Positions 1 through 11,876 of a stretch of 64,000 nucleotides of DNA are shown here, in pieces. The notes beneath the pieces were generated by a model that saw only the letters and a program-made list of their open reading frames with translations, did no database searches and was not told the origin of the DNA. The stretch comes from Carboxydocella thermautotrophica (GTDB lineage Bacteria > Bacillota > GCA-003054495 > Carboxydocellales > Carboxydocellaceae). Positions within the stretch are counted from its first letter, which is position 1. Each line of letters starts with the position of its first letter. The DNA lies in assembly GCA_003054495.1 (NCBI GenBank), contig CP028514.1, positions 1,341,501 to 1,405,500 of the forward strand, given 5' to 3'. The position numbers were made by a program, and so were the translations under genes.

Positions 1-408
1 AAAGACAGAGCTGTAAATATGGGCAATAATAACAAACCTGCTGAGTTCGCTCGTAGCAATGCTTTCTGTTCAGGATGTCACATAAATAAACCACCCAGCC
101 ATACCGAAATTTGGCCAATTGTGCATAAGCAACAGGCAATACCTAACCGGGCAGCCTGTCTGGTTTGTCATAATGAAAATAAACCTGATCCGTCGGAACG
201 AATTACCCAGAGAATTTATTGTTTCAAGTGCCACAAACCAAGGGATGGGATACAGGGGAATATTACCAATCACCCAACCAACTGGCGAAAACTTCATCCA
301 AATGTAGTTAAGTCAATTGGGATCGTGGAAGGTAAATGTTTTAATTGTCATGCAAGTAACCATTGTGCTAAATGTCATAGGGCCTATAACATTCATCAAA
401 TTAACTGA
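1..408 (+). CDS. Multiheme c-type cytochrome, 5' end outside the window
   Basis: The reading frame is open back to base 1, and the first ATG at 19 has no Shine-Dalgarno site or signal peptide behind it, so the true start lies upstream. The visible part has five CXXCH heme-binding motifs (CSGCH, CLVCH, CFKCH, CFNCH, CAKCH). The heme c would be attached outside the membrane, so a signal peptide is expected in the missing part. The closely packed hemes suit electron transfer; no catalytic domain is seen. It is followed at 484 by an 11-heme protein and probably belongs to the same operon. The family is certain; the exact role is not. Confidence 0.85.
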   Translation, partial: KDRAVNMGNNNKPAEFARSNAFCSGCHINKPPSHTEIWPIVHKQQAIPNRAACLVCHNENKPDPSERITQRIYCFKCHKPRDGIQGNITNHPTNWRKLHPNVVKSIGIVEGKCFNCHASNHCAKCHRAYNIHQIN

Positions 409-419
409 AAGATCGGCAG

Positions 420-470
420 GTAGACGGGAGGGGAATAAATCCCTTCCCCCTCCTCCCTTCCGAAAGGAAA
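420..470 (+). other. Possible mRNA hairpin between cytochrome genes
   Basis: A G-rich arm (GGGAGGGGAA) is followed by a C-rich arm (TTCCCCCTCC), then a small TTCC-GAAA-GGAA tetraloop hairpin. No U-run follows, so a simple terminator is unlikely. It may set relative expression of the two flanking genes. Folding was judged by eye only. Confidence 0.35.
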
Positions 471-483
471 GGACTAGAGGTTA

Positions 484-1464
484 ATGGCCGTAAAAGAACT
501 GCTAATAGTTGTTCTGATCGGGCTGATAATTGTGGGAATATTTGTTAATATTTATCAGCTTGACCTGAAAGAATTTTTCCTCGAAAGCTTATTGGGACTG
601 GTGTCACCAAATAAATATGCGGAAGTAGAAAGCAAAAAAAACTTAATTAATCGCATTCCACGAGAGTTTAAGGTGTGCCTGGACTGCCACGATACGCTTG
701 TGCAAAAACTGCAGGAAAAAAACATTCATCTTCCGGCAGTAATGGGTCAATGCGGAGTTTGTCATGTTGTAACTGGCCATCCTGGAGCCAGTGCTCAGTA
801 CACTTTACCTTTAAATGAATTATGTTTTACCTGCCATAATCGGATCTGGGATAAACAAAATCAATATCAACACAGACCTTTTGAGCTGGGCAAATGTGCG
901 GATTGTCATGATCCCCATGGTTCTCCAAATCAATATAATCTGCGCCTGGTACCGCAGTTATTGTGCAATACCTGTCATAATATGGGGATTAGATATGGTA
1001 AATACAAAGTTCAGCATCCGCCGTTTGCAACTAACCAGTGTCTCGGTTGTCATTATCCTCACAGCTCACCTTATCCCAAAAACCTCAGAGCTCCAGTAAA
1101 CGGGCTCTGTAACACCTGTCACTTTGCTACATTGCCGGGCCAATACGCACTTGTTAAACATCCTCCTTTTCGGGATGGACGCTGCATTGAGTGTCATCAT
1201 CCCCATGCTTCGGATAATATGCGAATGTTAAGAAAGCCCATCCCATACCTGTGCTTGAATTGTCACGATAATGAAAGGCAAATCGGCTGGTATAAAAAAA
1301 TGCATCCTTATGGCGAGAAGTTTCCAGATCGCGCTGAAGGAGGTAGCGTCACTTGTTTAAGTTGCCATCATCCCCATGGTACTGGTAATCCCAGGATGTG
1401 GCGACGACCTGGAAATTACCTGTGTTTTGGATGTCATCGCAATAAAATGGAGCCGATGAGGTGA
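484..1464 (+). CDS. Membrane-anchored 11-heme cytochrome c (doubled CXXCH type)
   Basis: The 326-residue protein begins with one hydrophobic segment (about residues 4-24) that should act as an uncleaved anchor. Eleven CXXCH motifs follow between about residues 65 and 320. Several carry the HxPHG/HPH extension typical of doubled-CXXCH cytochromes (CADCHDPHG, CIECHHPH, CLSCHHPHG), and extra histidines are available as distal heme ligands. The heme domain should face outside the membrane and could carry electrons from a quinol oxidoreductase to secreted cytochromes. The next gene overlaps or abuts its stop, which indicates an operon. The electron-transfer role is inferred from family and context. 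Confidence 0.9.
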   Translation: MAVKELLIVVLIGLIIVGIFVNIYQLDLKEFFLESLLGLVSPNKYAEVESKKNLINRIPREFKVCLDCHDTLVQKLQEKNIHLPAVMGQCGVCHVVTGHPGASAQYTLPLNELCFTCHNRIWDKQNQYQHRPFELGKCADCHDPHGSPNQYNLRLVPQLLCNTCHNMGIRYGKYKVQHPPFATNQCLGCHYPHSSPYPKNLRAPVNGLCNTCHFATLPGQYALVKHPPFRDGRCIECHHPHASDNMRMLRKPIPYLCLNCHDNERQIGWYKKMHPYGEKFPDRAEGGSVTCLSCHHPHGTGNPRMWRRPGNYLCFGCHRNKMEPMR

Positions 1465-1469
1465 AAAAT

Positions 1470-2117
1470 ATGGACTTACAGCCTCAAGAAAACATTATTC
1501 CGCTAAACCGCGCAATCATCTATTTGACCATTCTCATAATAACCGGTCTGTTAGTATTCTATTCTATTGGTAAATTTCTGTTCTGGAACAAACCAGAATT
1601 CCAGTCCAAAACCGAATATGATCTCGCAGTTGCCATGGAAAATGTAAAAAAATATCCGCAAAACGCGCTATTACGGGTTGAACTGGGCTGGGCCTTTGCA
1701 CAGGCCGGTAATTATGATCGGGCCCTGGAAGAATACCAGAATGCTTTAAAAATTGATAAGAAGAACGTTGCAGCTAAATATAATATGGCCTTGATTTATC
1801 TGCAAAAAAATCAAGATCAAAAAGCGGTTAAATTACTCGAAGAACTTATCAAGGAAAGGCCAGCCTTTACAGAAGCCAGACTTACACTGGGCGAATACTA
1901 CCTGCAGACTAAAAAGTATGATGATGCTTTAAAGCATTTTCATTTTGTGCTAAAGGCTAACCCTGGCACAGTAGACTATATCTATTTGATAGGTCAAGCG
2001 TTAGAGGGTAAAGGCAAAATAAAAGAAGCAATCCAGCAATATGAGCTGGCTTTGCGATATGTGCCTGATTTTCAACCAGCTAAGGAAGCCCTGGAAAAGT
2101 TGAAGGCCAAAAAATAG
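1470..2117 (+). CDS. Membrane-anchored TPR-repeat protein
   Basis: One transmembrane segment near residues 17-37 is followed by about four tetratricopeptide repeats (for example LGWAFAQAGNYDRALEEY and NMALIYLQKNQDQKAVKLL). TPR domains bind other proteins, so this may scaffold cytochrome assembly or maturation. ATG at 1470 has GAGGTG six bases upstream. A GTG at 1461 overlapping the previous stop as GTGA is an alternative and would add three residues. There are no heme motifs. TPR proteins also occur in cytochrome c maturation (CcmH/NrfG type), but this assignment is not specific. Confidence 0.85.
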   Translation: MDLQPQENIIPLNRAIIYLTILIITGLLVFYSIGKFLFWNKPEFQSKTEYDLAVAMENVKKYPQNALLRVELGWAFAQAGNYDRALEEYQNALKIDKKNVAAKYNMALIYLQKNQDQKAVKLLEELIKERPAFTEARLTLGEYYLQTKKYDDALKHFHFVLKANPGTVDYIYLIGQALEGKGKIKEAIQQYELALRYVPDFQPAKEALEKLKAKK

Positions 2118-2128
2118 GGGGCACTATT

Positions 2129-3067
2129 ATGGACAAGAAAAAATTTAAGCAATTATCGCTGGCAAGTCTAATAATTTTATTGCTGGTCTTTGCCTATTTT
2201 TACTGGCAAAAAACAGACCCCCTGGAAACCATACCTGTAGGCGATATAAGTGAACCTCCCAAATATGTTTTGTCTATGTATGGGGACAAAAAGTATTCTT
2301 TAGAACAACCTTTAGGTATAACAGTTTATGACAATGAGGTTTTTGTCTCTGACTCGGACGCAGGTAGAGTGTTGGTCTTTGATCAGAATGGTAAGTTATT
2401 GAGGATTATTGGAGAAAAAGACAAAAAGCTTAGAAATCCTTATGGTCTGGCAATTCACGCTGGAAAGCTTTATGTGGCTGACGGAGGACTGGCAAGAATC
2501 GCTATCTTTACTGTCCAGGGAGATTTCAAGGGGTACTGGCTTCCCAAGGAGGAGAATCGAATTAATGTGCCTGCGACGATATATGTAGATGACAATAGAA
2601 TAGTAATCAGCGATTTGGTTCGCAGCGGTATATATGTTTTTGATCATCAAGGTAACCTGAAATTAGCTTTTGGCGGCAAAGGTACAGAAAAAGGCTTCTT
2701 AAATAAACCCCACGGCTTTGTAATTAATGAGCGGGGAGAATTTATTGTGGCTGATAGTAACAATAATAGAGTGCAGATTTTTGATAACAAAGGGAAATTT
2801 ATCAAAATTCTTGGTGAGAATGAAAGCAATAAAGGAGAAATATTGACCCCAAGAGGCATCACCCAGGACGAACAGGGTAATATCTATGTCGTCTCCGGTC
2901 TGGAAAACAGAGTTTATGTTTTTGATAAAAATGGAAAATTTAGATTTAATTTTAACGAGACCGCTAATGGTGATACTTTAGGCTTGCCCAGTGGAATCGC
3001 CTACTCAGGACGTAAAGTCTATGTAACAGAATATGCCAATAAGCGGGTAAGTGTATTTAAGTATTAA
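2129..3067 (+). CDS. NHL-repeat beta-propeller protein, membrane anchored
   Basis: An N-terminal hydrophobic segment (about residues 9-25) precedes about six NHL-type blades, each with a recurring pattern such as VFDQNGKLLRIIG, HGFVINERGEFIVADSN or VFDKNGKFRFNF. The fold is a six-bladed propeller, usually a binding platform, exposed outside the cell membrane. It has no heme motif and no catalytic signature. A second propeller of similar length lies at 5087, each directly before a multiheme cytochrome, so the propeller and cytochrome may act as a pair. Substrate or partner is unknown. Confidence 0.88.
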   Translation: MDKKKFKQLSLASLIILLLVFAYFYWQKTDPLETIPVGDISEPPKYVLSMYGDKKYSLEQPLGITVYDNEVFVSDSDAGRVLVFDQNGKLLRIIGEKDKKLRNPYGLAIHAGKLYVADGGLARIAIFTVQGDFKGYWLPKEENRINVPATIYVDDNRIVISDLVRSGIYVFDHQGNLKLAFGGKGTEKGFLNKPHGFVINERGEFIVADSNNNRVQIFDNKGKFIKILGENESNKGEILTPRGITQDEQGNIYVVSGLENRVYVFDKNGKFRFNFNETANGDTLGLPSGIAYSGRKVYVTEYANKRVSVFKY

Positions 3068-3074
3068 ATGAGCC

Positions 3075-3094
3075 TGTAAGGCAGATGCCTTACA
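3075..3094 (+). other. Perfect intergenic hairpin
   Basis: TGTAAGGC, a four-base loop AGAT, and GCCTTACA form a perfect 8-bp stem. No U-run follows, so it is more likely a processing or stability element between the propeller gene and the 6-heme cytochrome gene than an intrinsic terminator. Confidence 0.55.
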
Positions 3095-3155
3095 ATATAA
3101 AAATAAAGGGGTGATGGGTTAAATGTCTATTTTAAAAAAGAGAGGAGGACCTATA

Positions 3156-5030
3156 TTGAAAGGGCGCTGGTTGACCCAAATATCATTAATTGGATCTCTG
3201 CTTTTATTCAGCGCTCAAGCAGCTTACGCTTTACCAACAACTCCACCATTGGCCAGTACTACCCTTAGCAGCGCGGCCAGTGCTGGAGGAACTACGATCA
3301 CTGTTACCAGTACCACTAATATTGATGTTGGCGATGTACTGGTCCTTGACCAAGGCGTAATTGGCAAGGAAGAACGGGTGCGAGTAGCTGGTATAGCTGG
3401 AACTACTATAACCATAGCCGGAGCAAGTAATGGTTACAAGTTACAGTACAGTCATAATAGTGGTGCTACTGTAGTAGAAATTGATACTGTTGGTTTGACC
3501 AATGCCAATCCCAATACTCCTGCTACTACTTATGAACACGATCCGGGAGATCCTGATAATTTCCAAGGGGTGATGGATCCTAATTTTAATAACAATTTAC
3601 CGGTCACCAGTGGGCCTCACGGTCGTTATACCACCAATACCAATGGTTGTGGACGCTGCCATCAATTACACCAAGCTAAAAGTATAAGATTAATCAGGTT
3701 TGATACAGCTGCAGCTCAAAACCCAATTTATGGAGTTTGTACTTATTGCCATAGTTTTAATGGGCAAAGTACCTATGATGTTAAAGATGGTATGATCTGG
3801 GATACCAACAATGGCTATCGCTATGCTACTAATGGTGGTGGTTTTGAACGCATGCTGGTGGTTGAGGGGCCGGCACAAGTAGCTACTGTAGTAAAAGTAT
3901 CGGCTAAACACCGAGTAAATGAACAAGCAACTATAAATACCGATGGCTCAATTTCTTATGTAAAGTTTAATGCCCCTGGAGGTTACCAGGAAACAAACGG
4001 TCACGTGGAATTGCGTTGTTCAAGTTGTCATCAGCCCCACGGAACTTCTAACAGCCGTCTGCTGGTAACCAGAATACAAACAGCAGATACCAGTGGGAAC
4101 CCCATCTGGCGTGATACATCTACTTCTGGAACTAAAGTAGTAATTAAGGTAAATAACCCTTTTAGTGATGAAAAAACAGAATACAACGAAGAAATTGCTA
4201 CTTTCTGCGGCGCGTGCCACTATGACTATCTTTCCAGCAATGCTTCACAGAAAAGTGGATATTATATGCCCAATTATTATCGCCACAAGATGAAAATGGG
4301 ACCCAATTCAGGTTTAAATGACATTAACACAAATGATGGTACTTTTGGTTATAATTCCAGTAAATTGGTTTTACCGCTGGCCAGCATCGGAAATGATGGT
4401 ACTAGCACCGGAGCTGCCAATACTGTTATATGTTTGACCTGTCATTACGCCCATGGGACCTTTGTGCAGGTAACTGGAATAAAGACTTATGACCAGATCC
4501 AGCTTAATAGTAATACTAATCTAAATACAGTTAATGGCTATGAATCTCCCAAAAACCTGCGGATGGATAACAGGGGAGTCTGCCAGAACTGTCACAACAG
4601 AACAAAGAGTACAGTAAAACCGGTACTGGTGCAGGTTTTAGATCCTGCTCAAGATGGTTCAAAAGAATATGGTCAGACTGGTTCGTTGCTACCTGGTAAA
4701 GCTGTTTCACCCACTGCTAATACCATTCTAATCCGCTTCGACCAGTACATGTGGAGGGATAAAACCGATCCGACTGGTGTTGCTGGTAGTGTTGAAAACA
4801 CTGGACATTACAAGGTGACAGACATGACAGCTAGCCAGAATATTTCTGTAACATCTGCTACTCTGCAGCCCGATGGACGTACTGTACTGTTAACTCTCGG
4901 CTCTAGTCTTACTCCTGGTAACCAGATTAAAGTCGAACTGCAAGCGATTGGTGCTACCAATATTAAAGACCTGAACTTTAATGAGGTAAACCCGGCAGAT
5001 ACGAATAATATTGTAACTTTCACTAAATAA
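3156..5030 (+). CDS. Secreted 6-heme cytochrome c with C-terminal Ig-like domain
   Basis: The TTG at 3156 is preceded by AGGAGG at a 7-base spacing and gives a clean signal peptide ending AYA before LPTTPP. The ATG at 3123 would add 11 residues. Six CXXCH motifs lie at about residues 165, 195, 288, 351, 426 and 476 (CGRCHQLH, CTYCH, CSSCHQPHG, CGACH, CLTCHYAHG, CQNCH). The N-terminal 150 residues are Thr/Ala/Gly-rich with a beta-strand look, and residues about 512-620 resemble a bacterial Ig-like (SbsA/Big type) domain. It is probably a surface or extracellular electron carrier. Heme number is certain; the role is inferred. Confidence 0.88.
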   Translation: MKGRWLTQISLIGSLLLFSAQAAYALPTTPPLASTTLSSAASAGGTTITVTSTTNIDVGDVLVLDQGVIGKEERVRVAGIAGTTITIAGASNGYKLQYSHNSGATVVEIDTVGLTNANPNTPATTYEHDPGDPDNFQGVMDPNFNNNLPVTSGPHGRYTTNTNGCGRCHQLHQAKSIRLIRFDTAAAQNPIYGVCTYCHSFNGQSTYDVKDGMIWDTNNGYRYATNGGGFERMLVVEGPAQVATVVKVSAKHRVNEQATINTDGSISYVKFNAPGGYQETNGHVELRCSSCHQPHGTSNSRLLVTRIQTADTSGNPIWRDTSTSGTKVVIKVNNPFSDEKTEYNEEIATFCGACHYDYLSSNASQKSGYYMPNYYRHKMKMGPNSGLNDINTNDGTFGYNSSKLVLPLASIGNDGTSTGAANTVICLTCHYAHGTFVQVTGIKTYDQIQLNSNTNLNTVNGYESPKNLRMDNRGVCQNCHNRTKSTVKPVLVQVLDPAQDGSKEYGQTGSLLPGKAVSPTANTILIRFDQYMWRDKTDPTGVAGSVENTGHYKVTDMTASQNISVTSATLQPDGRTVLLTLGSSLTPGNQIKVELQAIGATNIKDLNFNEVNPADTNNIVTFTK

Positions 5031-5036
5031 TTAGGC

Positions 5037-5062
5037 GCGGGGAATCTAGCATGATTCCCCGC
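5037..5062 (+). other. Perfect GC-rich intergenic hairpin
   Basis: GCGGGGAATC and GATTCCCCGC form a perfect 10-bp stem around a 6-base loop. It sits just after the 6-heme cytochrome stop and covers the first ATG (5051) of the next open frame, which supports the later start at 5087. There is no U-run, so it may be an mRNA 3'-end stabiliser or partial terminator. Confidence 0.6.
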
Positions 5063-5086
5063 TCGACCTTCTTCTGGGGTGGGAAA

Positions 5087-6007
5087 ATGGCCAGAAAAAT
5101 TAGTTGTTTCTTATTTGCTGTTGTTTTTTTTCTAGGAATTGGAGCATATTATTTCTCTCACGGTTATTCATTATCTTATTCTAGTCCTGCAAGAAAAACG
5201 ATTTATCATTTTTGGCCATCTGGTAATAATAGAATGCTTAATCAACCATTGGATGTAGCTAAGACAGGTAACGATTTATACTGGATTGCTGAAAGTACAA
5301 ACCAGCGGCTTAGTGCCGTCAATAATAACGGCACAATAGTAAAAGTTATAAACTTAGAGGGAAATTTCGCCCCTGGGAGTATTTGGTGGCAAAACAACCA
5401 TCTTTATGTTTGTGATTTAAATAGTAATCAAATAATGATATTAGATAAAAATGGAAATTTGATCAATCGTCTATTTTTATCAACAAATGGGGCTATTGTT
5501 AAACCTGTTTTTATTACAGGAGACAACCAAGAGCGATTATTTGTGGCTGATGTTTTTTACCATCAGGTAATTGTTTTGGATAACCTGGGTAATATCATTC
5601 AGAAAATCGCTAAGCCGGGCCATGAAAAAGGCCAGGTCTATTATCCTTACGGTATCGCTTATGATCAAGGGAACAAACGAATTTATGTCAGCGATTTTGG
5701 CAACCAGGAAGTAGATATTTTCGATATAAATGGCAGTTGGCTAGGGGATATCCCCACCTTAAGAGGCAAGCAAATACGCGGTCTGGCATGGGATGAGCGC
5801 CGCGAATTGCTTTGGGCCGTCGACATTTTTAATCATTCTGTTTTAATCTTAAATAAGGAATATAAAATTGTTGAACAAATTAATGAGCTGTCAACTGGCC
5901 AGTTCTTATATATCCCAAATAGCGTAAGGGTTTTCGGTAACGAAGTACTAATTGCAGACAAAGAAAATAACCGGATAGTACAGAGGATTGAGGTCGATAG
6001 AAAATGA
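5087..6007 (+). CDS. NHL-repeat beta-propeller protein, second copy
   Basis: The start at ATG 5087 follows a GGGGTGGG ribosome site; the ATG at 5051 lies inside a hairpin and was rejected. A hydrophobic N-terminus (about residues 5-23) acts as a signal or anchor, then NHL blades follow (for example ILDKNGNLINRLF, YPYGIAYDQGNKRIYVSDFG). It is related in layout to the propeller at 2129 but clearly diverged. Its stop overlaps the next cytochrome gene as ATGA, so the two are translationally coupled, which favours a physical partnership. Function is unknown beyond a binding scaffold. Confidence 0.86.
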   Translation: MARKISCFLFAVVFFLGIGAYYFSHGYSLSYSSPARKTIYHFWPSGNNRMLNQPLDVAKTGNDLYWIAESTNQRLSAVNNNGTIVKVINLEGNFAPGSIWWQNNHLYVCDLNSNQIMILDKNGNLINRLFLSTNGAIVKPVFITGDNQERLFVADVFYHQVIVLDNLGNIIQKIAKPGHEKGQVYYPYGIAYDQGNKRIYVSDFGNQEVDIFDINGSWLGDIPTLRGKQIRGLAWDERRELLWAVDIFNHSVLILNKEYKIVEQINELSTGQFLYIPNSVRVFGNEVLIADKENNRIVQRIEVDRK

Positions 6008-7467
6008 AAAAATTTTTTCAGATTATCTTTATGTTTTTTTTCTCATTTTTACCCATAACTCCGGTTATGGCAGCCCCTGACTATCCATTAATTATAAATT
6101 ACAGGCCCCTGGCAGGAGATCAAGGGGCAGGCATTGATACCGTTAAATCCCCTATTACTATTACCTTTGACCGGCCTATGAATGCTGCTACAATTAATAC
6201 AAGTACTTTTTATCTCAAGGATAGTAATAATAATTTACTAAATACAACTGTCACTTATGATAGTAATACCAGGGTGGCTACCCTGACATTAAATCCTGCA
6301 TCAACAAAATTGAATACTAATCAAGTCTATACTGTTTTTGTTATTGGCGGAGTTTCTGGGATTAAAGATAGCAATAATAATCCACTTCCAGGAAATTTTC
6401 AATGGTCTTTTGCGACAGGAACTTCGGATTATTTTGTGCCTCATCGCAATTATTCTACCAGTACTGCAAAATGTGGAATATGTCACCAACTGCACCAGGC
6501 ACCGGAGTATCGACTGGTGCGTAACAGTTCTACTTCAACTCTTTGCTTTACTTGTCATGATGGATCTGCCAGCAATTATAATATTAAATCACTTTTTGCA
6601 GCTGGCACCATTTCCTTTCACCCGGTGGCAGGCATATCTTTGGCTGGTAATTCTGATAAACTGAGATGTGTTGATTGCCATAACCCTCATAATGTTAATG
6701 ATAACCGTCCCCTTGCGCCAGCTGCTTCAGGTGCTTTGTCTTATAGCCGCGGAGTTGCACCACCTGCGCGGCCAGCCTGGAGTCAGGTCGCAGAAGGGGA
6801 CTGGAATTATAAAATAAGTATTTCGTATCAATACGAACTATGTTATCGCTGTCACTCAACCTGGGATCCAGCCAACCCAACCCATGCTGCTTTAACTTTA
6901 CGGGATATTGCCAGGGAATTTAATCCTAATAATAAGGCTTTTCATCCAGTAGAAGCAGATAGTCCCAACACAAAGGGAATTTTTGTTTCCGGCTATTCCG
7001 CAAGTACCAGGATCTTCTGTACTGATTGTCATGGCTCTCCGGTTTCAGGTGCAGCCAGAGGACCTCATGGCTCTACAAATGTTAAGATTTTAAAAGGACT
7101 TTATGATAATAATACAGGAACTGGAAACAGCCAGCATTTATGTTTTCGCTGTCATAATTATAACGCTTATGCCCAAAGAGATCCTTACAGAGATTCAAAT
7201 CTCACAGGATTTTATAATAGTAATAGAGGCAATCTGCATGCTTATCACACGGACAAATTAAACAGCATTCGCTGCCAGTATTGTCATTCTGCGGTAGTAC
7301 ACGGTCTTAATAGCAATAAACACCTGATTCTGAACACCAGTTTGGAATCCAATCCCTACAAAAGTAGTATTGCCAAAATTACTTACTATCAAGAAAGTAG
7401 TGGTAACTATAGTGCAAATAACTGCCGGGTTAATGATACTAATCTTTGCAGTGCACATTCAAATTAA
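6004..7467 (+). CDS. Secreted 7-heme cytochrome c with N-terminal Ig-like domain
   Basis: A signal peptide ends near VMAAP (about residue 24). Residues about 25-145 form a Big_5/SbsA-like Ig domain (ITFDRPMNAATINTSTF is typical). Seven CXXCH motifs follow at about residues 157, 181, 222, 280, 339, 380 and 424 (CGICHQLH, CFTCH, CVDCHNPH, CYRCH, CTDCHG, CFRCH, CQYCH). The first motif context, CHQLHQA followed by RLVR, matches the 6-heme protein at 3156, so they share a heme domain, but the Ig-like domain is at the opposite end. It is likely an exported electron carrier and is followed by maturation genes resB and ccsA. Confidence 0.88.
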   Translation: MKKFFQIIFMFFFSFLPITPVMAAPDYPLIINYRPLAGDQGAGIDTVKSPITITFDRPMNAATINTSTFYLKDSNNNLLNTTVTYDSNTRVATLTLNPASTKLNTNQVYTVFVIGGVSGIKDSNNNPLPGNFQWSFATGTSDYFVPHRNYSTSTAKCGICHQLHQAPEYRLVRNSSTSTLCFTCHDGSASNYNIKSLFAAGTISFHPVAGISLAGNSDKLRCVDCHNPHNVNDNRPLAPAASGALSYSRGVAPPARPAWSQVAEGDWNYKISISYQYELCYRCHSTWDPANPTHAALTLRDIAREFNPNNKAFHPVEADSPNTKGIFVSGYSASTRIFCTDCHGSPVSGAARGPHGSTNVKILKGLYDNNTGTGNSQHLCFRCHNYNAYAQRDPYRDSNLTGFYNSNRGNLHAYHTDKLNSIRCQYCHSAVVHGLNSNKHLILNTSLESNPYKSSIAKITYYQESSGNYSANNCRVNDTNLCSAHSN

Positions 7468-7482
7468 TGGAGAGTAATTAGT

Positions 7483-8391
7483 ATGTTAAGAGTATTATCC
7501 AGTATCCGATTAGCTAATTTAATCATATTAGTTTATTGTATTTTCTTGATTATCGCTATGCTTAAACCTGAAAAGAAGCTGCTGGATTCTATTTGGTTTT
7601 TTATTTTAGGGATATTGTTTTTTTTCAATCTTACAGCCTGTACCCTTAAACAATTGGTTAATTATCGTAAAAACAAAATTGGCTTAGCGCTCTTTCATAT
7701 TGGACTAGTATTAGTCCTTTTGGGAAATGGTATCAATTTTTTCTGGGGAAAAGAAGGTATTTTACAACTGGGGATTGGACAAACCAGGATTGTTGATAAA
7801 AGCAATTTATTAAATTATCGGGAGGGCAAATTTGCTTCCCCGTGGGAAGGGGATTTAGAAATCACGCTCCAAGATATAAAAATAGAAATGGATCAGGGTA
7901 AACCTAAAGTTAAGTATGGAAATTTACTGGTAGTAAACAGGAAAAACAACGCCATAGCTCAGATACCTTTTGATTATGTAAATTCATTTCAGTCAAACGG
8001 CCTTTATTTCTGGCCTTTGGAAAGAGGCTATGCTCCTGTATTAGAGTTAACGGATGAACTGATTCACTGGAGTCTACAAACTAAAAAATTAAATAACCAG
8101 GAAGTGTACGAAGGAAATTTAAAAACTGGTGATTTAGACCTGAAAGGCCAGCTGAAAGAGCAAAAATTGATTTTAATCTATCAACAAGGAAAAGAAACAA
8201 AAGAGAAAGTTTTAAGTCAAGGACAAACAGTATTCATTAATGGACAACAAATTAAATGGCTTGAAACCTCATACTGGCTGGCCTTTTCTGTTAAATACCA
8301 GCCAGGCAATAGTATAATCTGGCCAGGAACTCTCTTGCTGATTATTGGTAGCGCCTATCATTATCTACCACTGCTTTGGAAGAAGGGATAA
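7483..8391 (+). CDS. resB: ResB/Ccs1-like cytochrome c biogenesis protein
   Basis: System II cytochrome c maturation uses ResB (Ccs1) and CcsA (ResC) to move heme across the membrane and attach it to CXXCH. Here three N-terminal membrane segments (about residues 10-28, 36-56, 65-88 with FHIGLVLVLLGNG), a large outward domain, and a C-terminal segment (about 275-295) match the family layout. At 302 residues it is shorter than many ResB proteins. It sits directly between the cytochrome genes and ccsA, which supports a cluster-dedicated maturation system. Confidence 0.82.
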   Translation: MLRVLSSIRLANLIILVYCIFLIIAMLKPEKKLLDSIWFFILGILFFFNLTACTLKQLVNYRKNKIGLALFHIGLVLVLLGNGINFFWGKEGILQLGIGQTRIVDKSNLLNYREGKFASPWEGDLEITLQDIKIEMDQGKPKVKYGNLLVVNRKNNAIAQIPFDYVNSFQSNGLYFWPLERGYAPVLELTDELIHWSLQTKKLNNQEVYEGNLKTGDLDLKGQLKEQKLILIYQQGKETKEKVLSQGQTVFINGQQIKWLETSYWLAFSVKYQPGNSIIWPGTLLLIIGSAYHYLPLLWKKG

Positions 8392-8392
8392 C

Positions 8393-9175
8393 ATGTTTAA
8401 ACTTCAAGTAATAAATTTATGGACAAGCGTTAGTTTCTATGGTGTCGCCTTTGTTTTTTGGGTTGTTCACAGCTACTGGTATAAACCCATTCTGCTTAGG
8501 TTTAGTAATTATTCAGGTATAATCGGCTTTGTTTTTCATACTATAGCGTTAATTCTACGCTGGATAGAGGTTAATCATGGCCCCTATCATAATTTTTATG
8601 AAGTATTAATTTCTGACATGTGGGTAGCCTTATTGTTTTTCGGTATTTTAAGCTATAAGTTACCTGAACTAAAAAACGGCGCCCTTATCGTATATCCTTT
8701 GGCTATGGTAGTTATAGCTTATGCTGTCTTCCAAACCCCCCAGCAAACAGAACTTCCACCTTCATATGCTACTTACTGGCTGACCATACATGTGCTCTTT
8801 GCTAAACTGTCCTATGGTTCCTGTTTGCTTTCGGCTGTAGCTGCTGCTCTATATCTGCGTGAAAGAAAAGAGATTTTCGAGAAATGGCAATATCGGCTTG
8901 CAGGTATAGGATTCTTTAACCTTGCTGTAATGATTGCTTCAGGAGCAGTTTGGGCATATAAAGCCTGGGGGCGTTTCTGGGGCTGGGATCCCATCGAGAC
9001 CTGGGCTTTGATCTCCTGGCTTGTGTACGCATTGTACTTACATTTATGGAGAACGCAAAACTGGCGTGGCACAAAATCAGCCTGGTTGGCTATTATCAGT
9101 TTCTTATTCGTAATCCTGGCATTTTTCTGCCTTAAATTTCTATATCCTTCTGTTCACGAAAATCTCAGCATATAG
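8393..9175 (+). CDS. ccsA: CcsA/ResC-type cytochrome c assembly protein
   Basis: This multi-pass membrane protein has the tryptophan-rich WWD heme-handling signature (WGRFWGWDPIETWALISWL) near residue 200 and conserved histidines flanking it (HGPYHNFYEVL, HVLFAKLSYGS). It is the partner of ResB in heme export and ligation. ATG 8393, two bases after the resB stop and behind GAAGGG, is chosen over an upstream in-frame codon at 8345 inside resB. Length of 260 residues is normal. A terminator follows, closing the cytochrome operon. Confidence 0.9.
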   Translation: MFKLQVINLWTSVSFYGVAFVFWVVHSYWYKPILLRFSNYSGIIGFVFHTIALILRWIEVNHGPYHNFYEVLISDMWVALLFFGILSYKLPELKNGALIVYPLAMVVIAYAVFQTPQQTELPPSYATYWLTIHVLFAKLSYGSCLLSAVAAALYLRERKEIFEKWQYRLAGIGFFNLAVMIASGAVWAYKAWGRFWGWDPIETWALISWLVYALYLHLWRTQNWRGTKSAWLAIISFLFVILAFFCLKFLYPSVHENLSI

Positions 9176-9201
9176 AATATTTAGTTCATCTGGAGCAAAA
9201 A

Positions 9202-9228
9202 GATTACCCTCCGGGGTAGTCTTTTTTT
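9202..9228 (+). terminator. Intrinsic terminator of the cytochrome operon
   Basis: GATTACCC pairs with GGGTAGTC (one G-U pair) and is followed by seven T residues. It lies just after ccsA. Confidence 0.8.
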
Positions 9229-9981: not shown

Positions 9982-10350
9982 ATGAGCATTAATACTGAGG
10001 TCGGAATGGGTCAGAACGTAATTGAACATCCAAAACGTTCCCAGGCTGAATGGAAAAAAATCGCTGATAGTCCTGATTTTAAAACTCTTATTAACGCCAA
10101 AGGAAAATTTTTGATTCCTACCATCATATTTTCTTTTGTTTATTACTTTGCACTTCCTATTTTAGCTGGTTATGCCCCTGGCTTAATGAAAACAAAGATT
10201 GTTGGTGCTATTAATTTTGGCTATTTATTTGCACTTTCCCAGTTTTTCGTAGCCTGGATAATTGCCGGACTTTATAGCTCAGTATCTAATAATACCTTTG
10301 ATCCGCTGGCAGAAAAAATTAAGCAACAACAGGGGGGGAAGGGTAGATGA
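9982..10350 (+). CDS. DUF485 small subunit of a solute:sodium symporter
   Basis: The 122-residue protein has a hydrophilic N-terminus and two membrane segments (about residues 48-68 and 78-100), with the DSPDFKTLI and [13 protein letters not shown] blocks of the DUF485 family. DUF485 proteins are regularly encoded just upstream of acetate-type SSF symporters and are thought to support them. Its stop overlaps the symporter start by four bases (ATGA), showing translational coupling. It has a good AAAGGAG site. Confidence 0.88.
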
Positions 10351-11876
10351 AGATTATTACTTTTGGTCTATTTGCTCTTGTTGTTCTTGCTACCCTGATT
10401 ATTACTTACTGGGCAGCACGACGTACTAAAACTACTGCCGAATTCTATGCTGCTGGCCGCAGCTTAAGTGGTATTCAGAACGGTTTTGCTATAGCCGGTG
10501 ACTATATGAGTGCCGCTTCATTTCTGGGGATTGCTGGACTCATTGCTTTAAATGGCTATGATGGTTTTATGTATTCTGTAGGTTGGCTGGTAGCATATAT
10601 TACTGTTCTACTGGTCGTAGCCGAACCCTTACGAAATAGCGGTAAATATACCATGGCCGATATGCTGGCTTACCGCTTAAAACCCAAGCCGGTGCGGACT
10701 GCAGCAGCCCTTTCTACTCTAGTTATCTCCACCTTTTATCTATTAGCCCAAATGGTGGGTGCAGGTAGCTTAATTAAAATGCTAATCGGCTTATCCTATG
10801 AAACCTCCATTATTATAATCGGTATAATGATGATCTTATATGTTGCCTTCGGTGGTATGCTGGCAACCACCTGGGTACAAATCATAAAAGCGGGATTATT
10901 AATGGCTTGTGCAATTGTTTTAAGCTTTGCGGTTTTAGTAAAATTTAACTTCAATTTCGTGGACTTTTTTGGCGGTTTAAGCCAGAAGTACGGCCAATCA
11001 TTCCTGGAGCCAGGGAAATTATATAAGAATCCCATTGAATTAATCTCATTAGGATTAGCGCTAGTTTTAGGTACTGCGGGAATGCCTCATATTCTCATGC
11101 GCTTCTATACTGTACCTACTGCAAAAGAGGCCCGGAAATCCGTTGTTTGGGCAATGATTTTAATCGGTTCATTCTACATTATGACAACTTTCCTTGGATT
11201 CGGAGCAGCATACTTTGTTGGAGCAGATGCGGTCAAAGCTGCTGAAAAAGGCGGTAATATGGCAGCTCCAATGCTGGCCCAATATCTATTCGGTGGACCT
11301 AATACAATTGGTGGTGAAGCTGGTTTAGCTTTCGTTTCTGCGGTTGCTTTCGCTACAATCTTAGCAGTAGTTGCCGGTTTGACTCTGGCTGCATCCAGTG
11401 CCTTTGCCTATGATTTTTACACTAATGTAATTAAGGGTGGCAATGTGGATGAAGCTACTCAGGTTAAAGTCGCGAAGAGAACAACTGTAGCTGTTGGTAT
11501 TGTAGCAATAATTTTGGGGCTTCTAGCTAAAGGCCAAAACGTCGCCCATCTGGTAGCTCTGGCCTTCGCAGTTGCATCCTCTGCCAATGTGCCGGTTATT
11601 GTCTTCTCGGTATTCTGGAAGAAGTTCAATACTGGTGGTGCTGTAACCGGTATCCTGGTTGGCCTGGCTTCCTGTATCATTTTCCTCCTGCTAGGCCCCA
11701 ATGTGATGGATCCAAAGACTGCAATCTTTCCACTGAAGAATCCGGCTATTGTTTCTGTTCCGTTAGGATTCCTGGGTGCCTATCTGGGCAGCTTGTTCTA
11801 TCGTGAACCGGAAGCCGAAGAGAAATTCGAAGAACTCTACGTACGGGCCAATACCGGTATTGGTGCAGAAGTGTAA
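10347..11876 (+). CDS. actP: Sodium:solute symporter, acetate (ActP) type
   Basis: This 509-residue, about 13-helix membrane protein belongs to the SSF family. It has the [18 protein letters not shown] start and the [14 protein letters not shown] block of the ActP branch, and the [14 protein letters not shown] motif. ActP carries short-chain monocarboxylates such as acetate with Na+. Pairing with DUF485 supports this branch, but pyruvate, propionate or lactate are possible substrates. A strong hairpin follows the stop. Confidence 0.83.

Follow-up and report, generated by a model that had tools for sequence, protein, structure and literature searches.

A cytochrome bc complex heads a multiheme cytochrome operon encoding an OmcS-family hexaheme in Carboxydocella thermautotrophica

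Gene content and organization of the operon

We analyzed a 64,000-nucleotide stretch of the genome of Carboxydocella thermautotrophica 41T, a thermophilic, CO-oxidizing, Gram-positive bacterium (contig CP028514.1, positions 1,341,501 to 1,405,500, referred to as the window), which opens within a cluster of genes for multiheme cytochromes, NHL beta-propeller proteins, a tetratricopeptide repeat (TPR) protein, and two heme attachment proteins. This cluster is a real, conserved respiratory operon. An initial annotation of the window gave its order as a cytochrome, an 11-heme cytochrome, a TPR protein, an NHL protein, a 6-heme cytochrome, a second NHL protein, a 7-heme cytochrome, ResB, CcsA, and a terminator, with which our coordinates agree. 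The same annotation had the cluster beginning at the window start, whereas the window edge in fact splits the operon, and same-strand genes continue upstream into a Rieske/cytochrome b complex that had been missed. Coordinates below are window positions unless given for a genome (G###, with G000 the host genome) or a fetched locus (L###).

All genes of the cluster lie on the forward strand. The 3' end of cytA occupies positions 1 to 408 and holds 5 CXXCH motifs, which fits the five or more hemes first counted there; the gene is cut by the edge, however, and its full length (L006:15836-16909), beginning 666 bases ahead of the window, encodes an N-terminally anchored NrfH/NapC-like cytochrome with 12 hemes over 357 amino acids. 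The product of cytB (484 to 1464) is an 11-heme cytochrome with one N-terminal transmembrane-like segment, from a doubled-CXXCH family related to MtrA/DmsE; it scores 126.2 bits with the DmsE-type model, under the cutoff of 192.2, and matches 6R2Q, which we take to be MtrA, at 4.3e-16. A gene for a TPR protein (1461 to 2117) overlaps cytB by 4 bases and is followed by NHL1 (2129 to 3067), cytC (3123 to 5030), NHL2 (5051 to 6007), and cytD (6004 to 7467). The TPR protein and both NHL propellers have N-terminal transmembrane-like segments. The two cytochromes have signal-like N termini: cytC is a 6-heme OmcS-family protein with extra N- and C-terminal regions, and cytD is a 7-heme protein with an Ig-like (Big_5) domain, a shortened form of a 15-heme cytochrome of its relatives. 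The last genes encode the two parts of a System II cytochrome c synthase, a short ResB (7483 to 8391; PF05140, 44.1 bits) and CcsA (8393 to 9175; PF01578, 4e-38), and an intrinsic terminator closes the operon at about 9197 to 9228.

The genes are tightly spaced, with gaps of 5, 25, 0, and 75 bases between successive genes from Rieske to cytB and of -4 to 55 bases from there through CcsA. This count takes the CcsA start as ATG at 8393, since the listed TTG start at 8345 is probably too early. The ATGA coupling noted earlier for one propeller-cytochrome pair is that of NHL2 and cytD (gap of -4), and the terminator hairpin is more stable than all 200 shuffled versions (fold z = -3.7). Promoter-like matches were at chance level, with 34 found and 32.1 expected. 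Where the initial annotation counted at least 29 CXXCH motifs, we count 29, comprising the 5 in the cut cytA and 24 in the three complete cytochromes. Residue shuffles of those three proteins gave a mean of 0.07 motifs and a maximum of 2 (1,000 shuffles), ruling out a chance origin.

The hexaheme cytochrome and its NHL and TPR neighbors

On sequence grounds cytC belongs to the OmcS family, although it is only distantly similar to OmcS itself. A profile of 11 cytC relatives, compared with PDB sequences, had OmcS as its sole strong match (6.6e-15, with the next at 0.0013). A second profile, built from 68 hexaheme cores (67 of 89 candidate cores plus cytC of the window), matched OmcS at E = 5.2e-34 over chain residues 2 to 406 of 407, and its runner-up, whose best stretch covered 46 positions, reached 5.7e-12. 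The six CXXCH motifs of the family are collinear with those of OmcS over the whole chain. In cytC the OmcS-like core spans residues 158 to 500 (positions 3594 to 4622) and contains, besides its six CXXCH motifs, H166, H183, H263, H306, H388, and H444. Six such further histidines are kept in 59, 67, 68, 68, 68, and 68 of the 68 cores, which is enough for six bis-histidine hemes. The histidine of a CXXCHxxH motif just after heme 1 is kept in 67 of the 68 cores and aligns with an OmcS histidine that we take to be the heme 5 ligand in the next subunit. Heme 5 of OmcS takes one ligand from the neighboring subunit (PMC6584659, PMC7911101).

Structure prediction agrees with this placement. The AlphaFold2 monomer model of the core (mean predicted local distance difference test score [pLDDT], 72.8) aligned with OmcS (6EF8) in VIA-align at a Z of 11.6 over 229 residues (root mean square deviation, 4.2), OmcS being the only 1 of 182 chains to reach a Z of at least 2; as the PDB entries used to train AlphaFold2 may include OmcS, this fold match is supporting evidence only. 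A model of full-length cytC made with 11 sequences had a pLDDT of 42 and was not used. The initial annotation had proposed a modular electron conduit, possibly with cytochrome filaments, and the family membership of cytC supports that proposal.

The pairing of an NHL gene with a hexaheme gene is kept well beyond this operon. We surveyed public loci matched by the cytC alignment (at least 66, a sample biased toward cytC relatives), of which 57 have a 6-heme gene with an upstream neighbor. Among the matches listed, an NHL gene lies directly upstream on the same strand of 44 of 78 hexaheme genes, whereas 2,000 within-locus gene-order shuffles averaged 8.3 and never exceeded 18; by locus, this holds for 39 of 57. 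A TPR gene directly precedes the NHL gene in 40 of 56 cases. The loci are named as Bacillota (including Neobacillus and Thermincola), Chloroflexi, Actinobacteria, and others, and TPR-NHL-hexaheme clusters thus recur in Bacillota, Chloroflexota, and other groups. The layout, unfamiliar to the initial annotation, is not isolated, given the related clusters in both the genomes of relatives and public loci. A Bacillota metagenome-assembled genome (MAG) has, beside its TPR-NHL-hexaheme set, an open frame of 2,411 amino acids with 67 CXXCH motifs (L091:6957-14192).

Genomes of relatives gave a similar picture. Each of the five NHL genes in the host sits immediately ahead of a 6- or 7-heme gene. Across 12 of the 17 genomes with an NHL match (G016, G019, G020, G041, and G044 were left out), a multiheme gene immediately follows 44 of 62 NHL genes and lies within two genes of 52 of 64; for G002, with its short contigs, the latter count is only 1 of 6. 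The first contig scan with NHL1 as the query returned no relatives. Hexaheme matches occur in 9 of 61 genomes (host and relatives), that of G018 being weak and partial, and the remaining 8 all have a strong NHL match (E <= 1e-40). Two genomes, G040 and G026, have NHL genes and no hexaheme match, and their NHL genes are mostly beside other multihemes. At four G040 loci (L175 to L178), several NHL genes are followed by tetraheme genes in the hexaheme's stead, and a 4-heme protein may there take the hexaheme's part in the pairing.

NHL and hexaheme distances are correlated (r = 0.694 over 27 pairs), a value that none of 5,000 within-genome re-pairings reached (maximum, 0.549). The pairs are inherited as a unit, which does not imply contact. 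The linkage of NHL and cytochrome genes on which the initial annotation staked its module is thus kept in relatives, by locus, by gene, and by co-divergence.

The bc complex, the first cytochrome, and the end of the operon

Upstream of the window the same strand carries genes for a PAS-type histidine kinase, a LuxR-type regulator, a Rieske protein, cytochrome b6, and a fusion of subunit IV to three cytochrome c domains, followed by the start of cytA; complex I (nuo) genes lie further upstream. The Rieske motifs CTHLGC and CPCHG are intact, b6 has histidines at 88, 102, 189, and 204, the complex carries YCxGG and PEWY, and the subunit IV fusion has three CXXCH motifs. Its Rieske motifs, b-heme histidines, PEWY, and subunit IV place it among the b6-type Rieske/cytochrome b complexes. 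Other complexes of this type in Bacillota, such as Bacillus qcrABC and heliobacterial pet, likewise combine Rieske, b6, and a subunit IV that is fused or next to cytochrome c; that of Carboxydocella differs in its triheme fusion and its direct link to multihemes. The gap between subunit IV and cytA is 0 bases, which together with the linkage in a second genome of the order (G001) led us to reject the bc complex as an unrelated neighbor.

Homologs of b6 at 83 to 100% identity come from the same species (G000, G061) and from G001 and G002 of its order, and among the genomes whose b6 neighbors we read, only these link a bc complex to the multiheme, NHL, TPR, and hexaheme set. Of the 50 other genomes with a b6 match, we read the neighbors of b6 in 15, and none of these had a TPR, NHL, or hexaheme gene beside the bc complex in the fetched stretches, which differ in length; one (G170) has a 9-heme gene there. 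The operon is intact in G061, with cytochromes, TPR, NHL, ResB, and CcsA proteins 99 to 100% identical. In G001 a single run holds two-component genes, Rieske, b6, the subunit IV fusion, cytA, cytB, two hexahemes, a TPR-type lipoprotein, a TPR gene, two NHL genes, a 15-heme cytD, and ResB, at 28 to 85% identity to the parts of the host operon. In G002 these parts are split over two contigs and follow the order of G001 to the extent that the contigs reach. The gene set is kept between the host and these two genomes, and the order is not. The host genome has a second bc complex with Rieske, b6, and subunit IV genes (L162, G000:C1:600800-606200). Near that set is a 786-amino-acid protein with a twin-arginine-like start, and a similar neighbor occurs at a G002 set (L165).

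The link to a bc complex coincides with an apparent change in cytA. A cytA family profile (9 relatives) matches NrfH (2J7A) at 7e-16 through its N-terminal part, and heme 1 of NrfH is ligated from a CXXCHxM motif. Among 66 proteins of the 12-heme type (8 to 15 hemes, early first heme), we used the 38 with profile scores above 150; the 28 weaker matches, 6 with Met at the second residue after heme 1 and 22 without Met, are distant or differently built and thus little informative. Of 36 stand-alone relatives, 34 have Met two residues after heme 1, versus neither of the two bc-linked cytA proteins compared, and 2 have it three residues after heme 1, versus one of the two bc-linked proteins (G001). 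The Met is followed by PE in 34 of the 36 stand-alone proteins, and PE is absent from both bc-linked forms. Host cytA has no Met within three residues after heme 1. As a candidate NrfH/NapC-type quinol dehydrogenase, cytA keeps the NrfH-like N-terminal part, with the Met absent here and shifted in G001. These comparisons suggest that the heme 1 site has changed in bc-linked cytA. A missing Met at the second position fits takeover of quinol oxidation by the bc complex, a thin argument from two sequences of one order. Many related clusters open with a pair of NrfH/NapC-like cytochromes, of 10 and 12 hemes, or with the 12-heme member alone.

At the other end of the operon, cytD aligns at both ends of its heme part with 15-heme proteins of G001 and G039 and with a host paralog. 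These 15-heme relatives carry fn3/Ig arrays, and the PDB matches listed for the family (60 of 75) fall in the fn3-type part of relatives, with none in the heme part. The internal block of 8 hemes that cytD lacks is flanked by two similar C-x-D-C-H-[ND]-P-H stretches, a pattern expected of recombination between repeats. The host paralog belongs to an NHL-hexaheme-15-heme set (L051), which may correspond to CFE_2242-2243, judging from heme counts and order; in print, that hexaheme/15-heme pair lies upstream of a 17-heme gene found only in strain 019 (PMC6085454).

Both parts of System II cytochrome c synthesis are present. ResB (302 amino acids) scores 44.1 bits as a whole protein with the Pfam model, above the cutoff, versus 19.5 in the genome-wide scan, under it; the CcsB model TIGR03144 gives CcsA 167.9, below its cutoff of 187.6. 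The initial annotation found the layout with dedicated System II genes unfamiliar, yet ResB or CcsA recurs beside such clusters, and ResB also follows cytD in G001 and G039. The host genome has five ResB matches, four of them at 1673 to 1696 kb in or beside another multiheme cluster. The window cluster contains CXXCH motifs only and no CX3CH or CX4CH, so the extra System II set is not accounted for by a special heme motif and may instead reflect dosage. A large second multiheme cluster (G000:C1:1684900-1714000; L009, L050) is predicted to encode 49-heme (1,780 amino acids), 28-heme, 26-heme (cut), and 17-heme cytochromes, with two NHL-hexaheme pairs and a ResB/CcsA set. A short distance past the operon terminator, window positions 9982 to 11876 hold a DUF485 and sodium:solute symporter pair, presumably an acetate-type symporter by its arrangement.

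Electron transfer, known systems, and implications

The closest known counterpart is the Thermincola potens/ferriacetica pathway (ImdcA, TherJR_1117/Tfer_0070; CwcA, TherJR_1122/Tfer_0075), in which a membrane multiheme cytochrome is followed by the hexaheme CwcA, for which OmcS served as the model and a wall-spanning position is proposed (PMC7911101). A T. ferriacetica MAG locus (L066) holds 10-heme, 12-heme, 17-heme, TPR, NHL, and hexaheme genes, and we infer from locus-number spacing, which fits, that it is Tfer_0070-0075. Compared with Thermincola, the host operon has no 10-heme ImdcA-like gene and has the bc complex in that place, and it adds a second NHL gene, the 7-heme cytD, and the closing ResB/CcsA; a 10-heme/12-heme pair is present in another host cluster (L050). 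The available text of the Thermincola study does not mention NHL or TPR (PMC7911101). Given the frequency with which NHL directly precedes the hexaheme and the co-divergence of the pair, the cluster represents a Gram-positive version of the CwcA/OmcS kind known from Thermincola, and its unusual feature is the bc head.

The Geobacter OmcS system shares with the host an OmcS-family hexaheme and propeller-type neighbors. At a Geobacter MAG locus (L116), NHL directly precedes each of two hexahemes, with a second propeller type, CsgG/GNA1162-like lipoproteins, and a prolyl isomerase in between. Shen et al. 2025 reportedly describe OscH as a prolyl isomerase, OscEFG as channel-like, and OscD as propeller-like. 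By content, L116 resembles the eight-gene block GSU2500-GSU2493, which has been tied to OmcS maturation and secretion (PMC12977616). Pfam searches of the host operon proteins found no prolyl isomerase or CsgG/GNA1162-like channel gene, as expected without an outer membrane, and the only PF00639 match in the host genome is at C1:75032.

NHL genes in multiheme clusters are already in print, in Dethiobacter alkaliphilus, where TPR genes also occur as in the host (PMC10376724), Desulfovibrio ferrophilus (PMC9769857), and Geoalkalibacter ferrihydriticus (PMC12016550), and assembly or mineral-binding roles have been proposed there. The available Dethiobacter text names none of OmcS, CwcA, and Rieske (for the other two papers the search covered NHL only), and the available text of the host-genome paper, which assigns complex I to CTH_1331-1341, counts 30 multiheme genes, and found no CymA homolog, names neither Rieske nor OmcS (PMC6085454). 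We found no published description of the bc-headed operon form, the host-genome paper included, and no published statement of NHL as a general neighbor of OmcS-family hexahemes; Shen et al. 2025 and a 2023 cytochrome-nanowire survey were outside this coverage, and so either may be known already.

We consider it probable that the operon joins an energy-conserving bc complex to a multiheme chain that includes the OmcS-family hexaheme, which probably forms a wall-crossing filament. Menaquinol would be oxidized by the b6-type complex, whose subunit IV carries the three fused cytochrome c domains, and electrons would pass to the membrane-anchored 12-heme cytA and 11-heme cytB, then to secreted cytC, probably stacked into a filament across the cell wall, and finally to cytD, which would sit at the surface. 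For the anchored TPR and NHL proteins, the most likely role is to aid folding, delivery, or capping of the hexaheme, which would make them Gram-positive equivalents of the OmcS companion factors; ResB/CcsA would attach heme. More tentatively, the anchored TPR and NHL pair of monoderms may constitute a minimal assembly apparatus for OmcS-family wires, replacing the channel and prolyl isomerase of Geobacter, with the wire of the Carboxydocella order charged by a proton-motive bc complex instead of a quinol dehydrogenase; we regard this extension as possible and rather less than likely.

Several observations weigh against the proposed chain. Strain 019 reduces Fe(III), but 41T does not reduce it in any form, and hydrogenogenic CO oxidation is given as the only mode of growth of 41T (PMC6085454). 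This leaves the chain without a known acceptor and gives no support to the Fe(III) role raised by the initial annotation. What OmcS does physiologically is itself a matter of dispute (PMC11077965). cytC has terminal regions that OmcS is without, phmmer with cytC alone matched no PDB sequence at E <= 1, and Foldseek alone on the core model gave no match at E <= 0.001, with OmcS absent from its 33 rows. Among the matches listed, the hexaheme has no adjacent NHL gene in 18 of 57 loci. G001 and G002, the closest bc-headed relatives, carry the TPR and NHL genes after the two hexahemes, and NHL there does not directly precede a hexaheme; linked genes can also co-diverge without touching. cytD is without an internal block of 8 hemes found in its 15-heme relatives. 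The Met of G001 leaves only one bc-linked cytA wholly without one, and a cytochrome that has lost a ligand may still oxidize quinol.

The likeliest alternative, though we think it unlikely, is that cytC and cytD act as monomeric carriers, either secreted or bound to the wall, or else reduce oxyanions or humics at the surface, with an OmcS fold that does not polymerize and NHL proteins as docking or adhesion partners. The terminal regions of cytC and the fn3/Ig arrays of the cytD relatives do look like wall or surface anchoring, and among the hexaheme relatives of G. sulfurreducens only OmcS is reported to form a wire (PMC12977616); set against this are the near-universal CXXCHxxH histidine, at the position presumed to bridge subunits in OmcS, and the Thermincola relative CwcA, which was insoluble and has been modeled as a polymer (PMC7911101). 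Somewhat less likely again is direct oxidation of menaquinol by NrfH-like cytA, as in Thermincola, with the bc complex a separate or parallel branch on a shared transcript. The NrfH match of the cytA family and the shifted Met of G001 favor such a route, but the abutting subunit IV and cytA genes, their linkage in two further genomes, the empty usual Met position in both bc-linked proteins, and the complete loss of Met in the host argue against it. That the cluster is a relic in 41T is improbable: cytD has lost 8 of 15 hemes, and the strain shows no Fe(III) reduction (PMC6085454) and no extracellular respiration, yet all reading frames are open and the operon of the same species in G061 is intact and nearly identical. 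Inward flow, in which an outside donor or partner feeds the operon and electrons are pushed uphill through the bc complex and complex I, would suit an autotrophic host with nuo genes upstream and multiheme chains that are reversible in principle, but is very improbable, as a reversed bc complex requires proton motive force and a suitable donor, and none is known here.

It is still an open question how cytochrome wires are assembled and how they are charged, and many wire factors are poorly defined even in G. sulfurreducens, according to a review (PMC12307469). With a hexaheme, two kinds of small candidate helpers, and no outer-membrane parts, the operon offers a simple system for testing the function of NHL propellers, and the altered heme 1 site of cytA offers a direct mutational test of a change in electron input. 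The bc-headed form predicts extra energy conservation in extracellular respiration, and if the more tentative reading holds, such respiration in the Carboxydocella order would conserve energy at the bc step.

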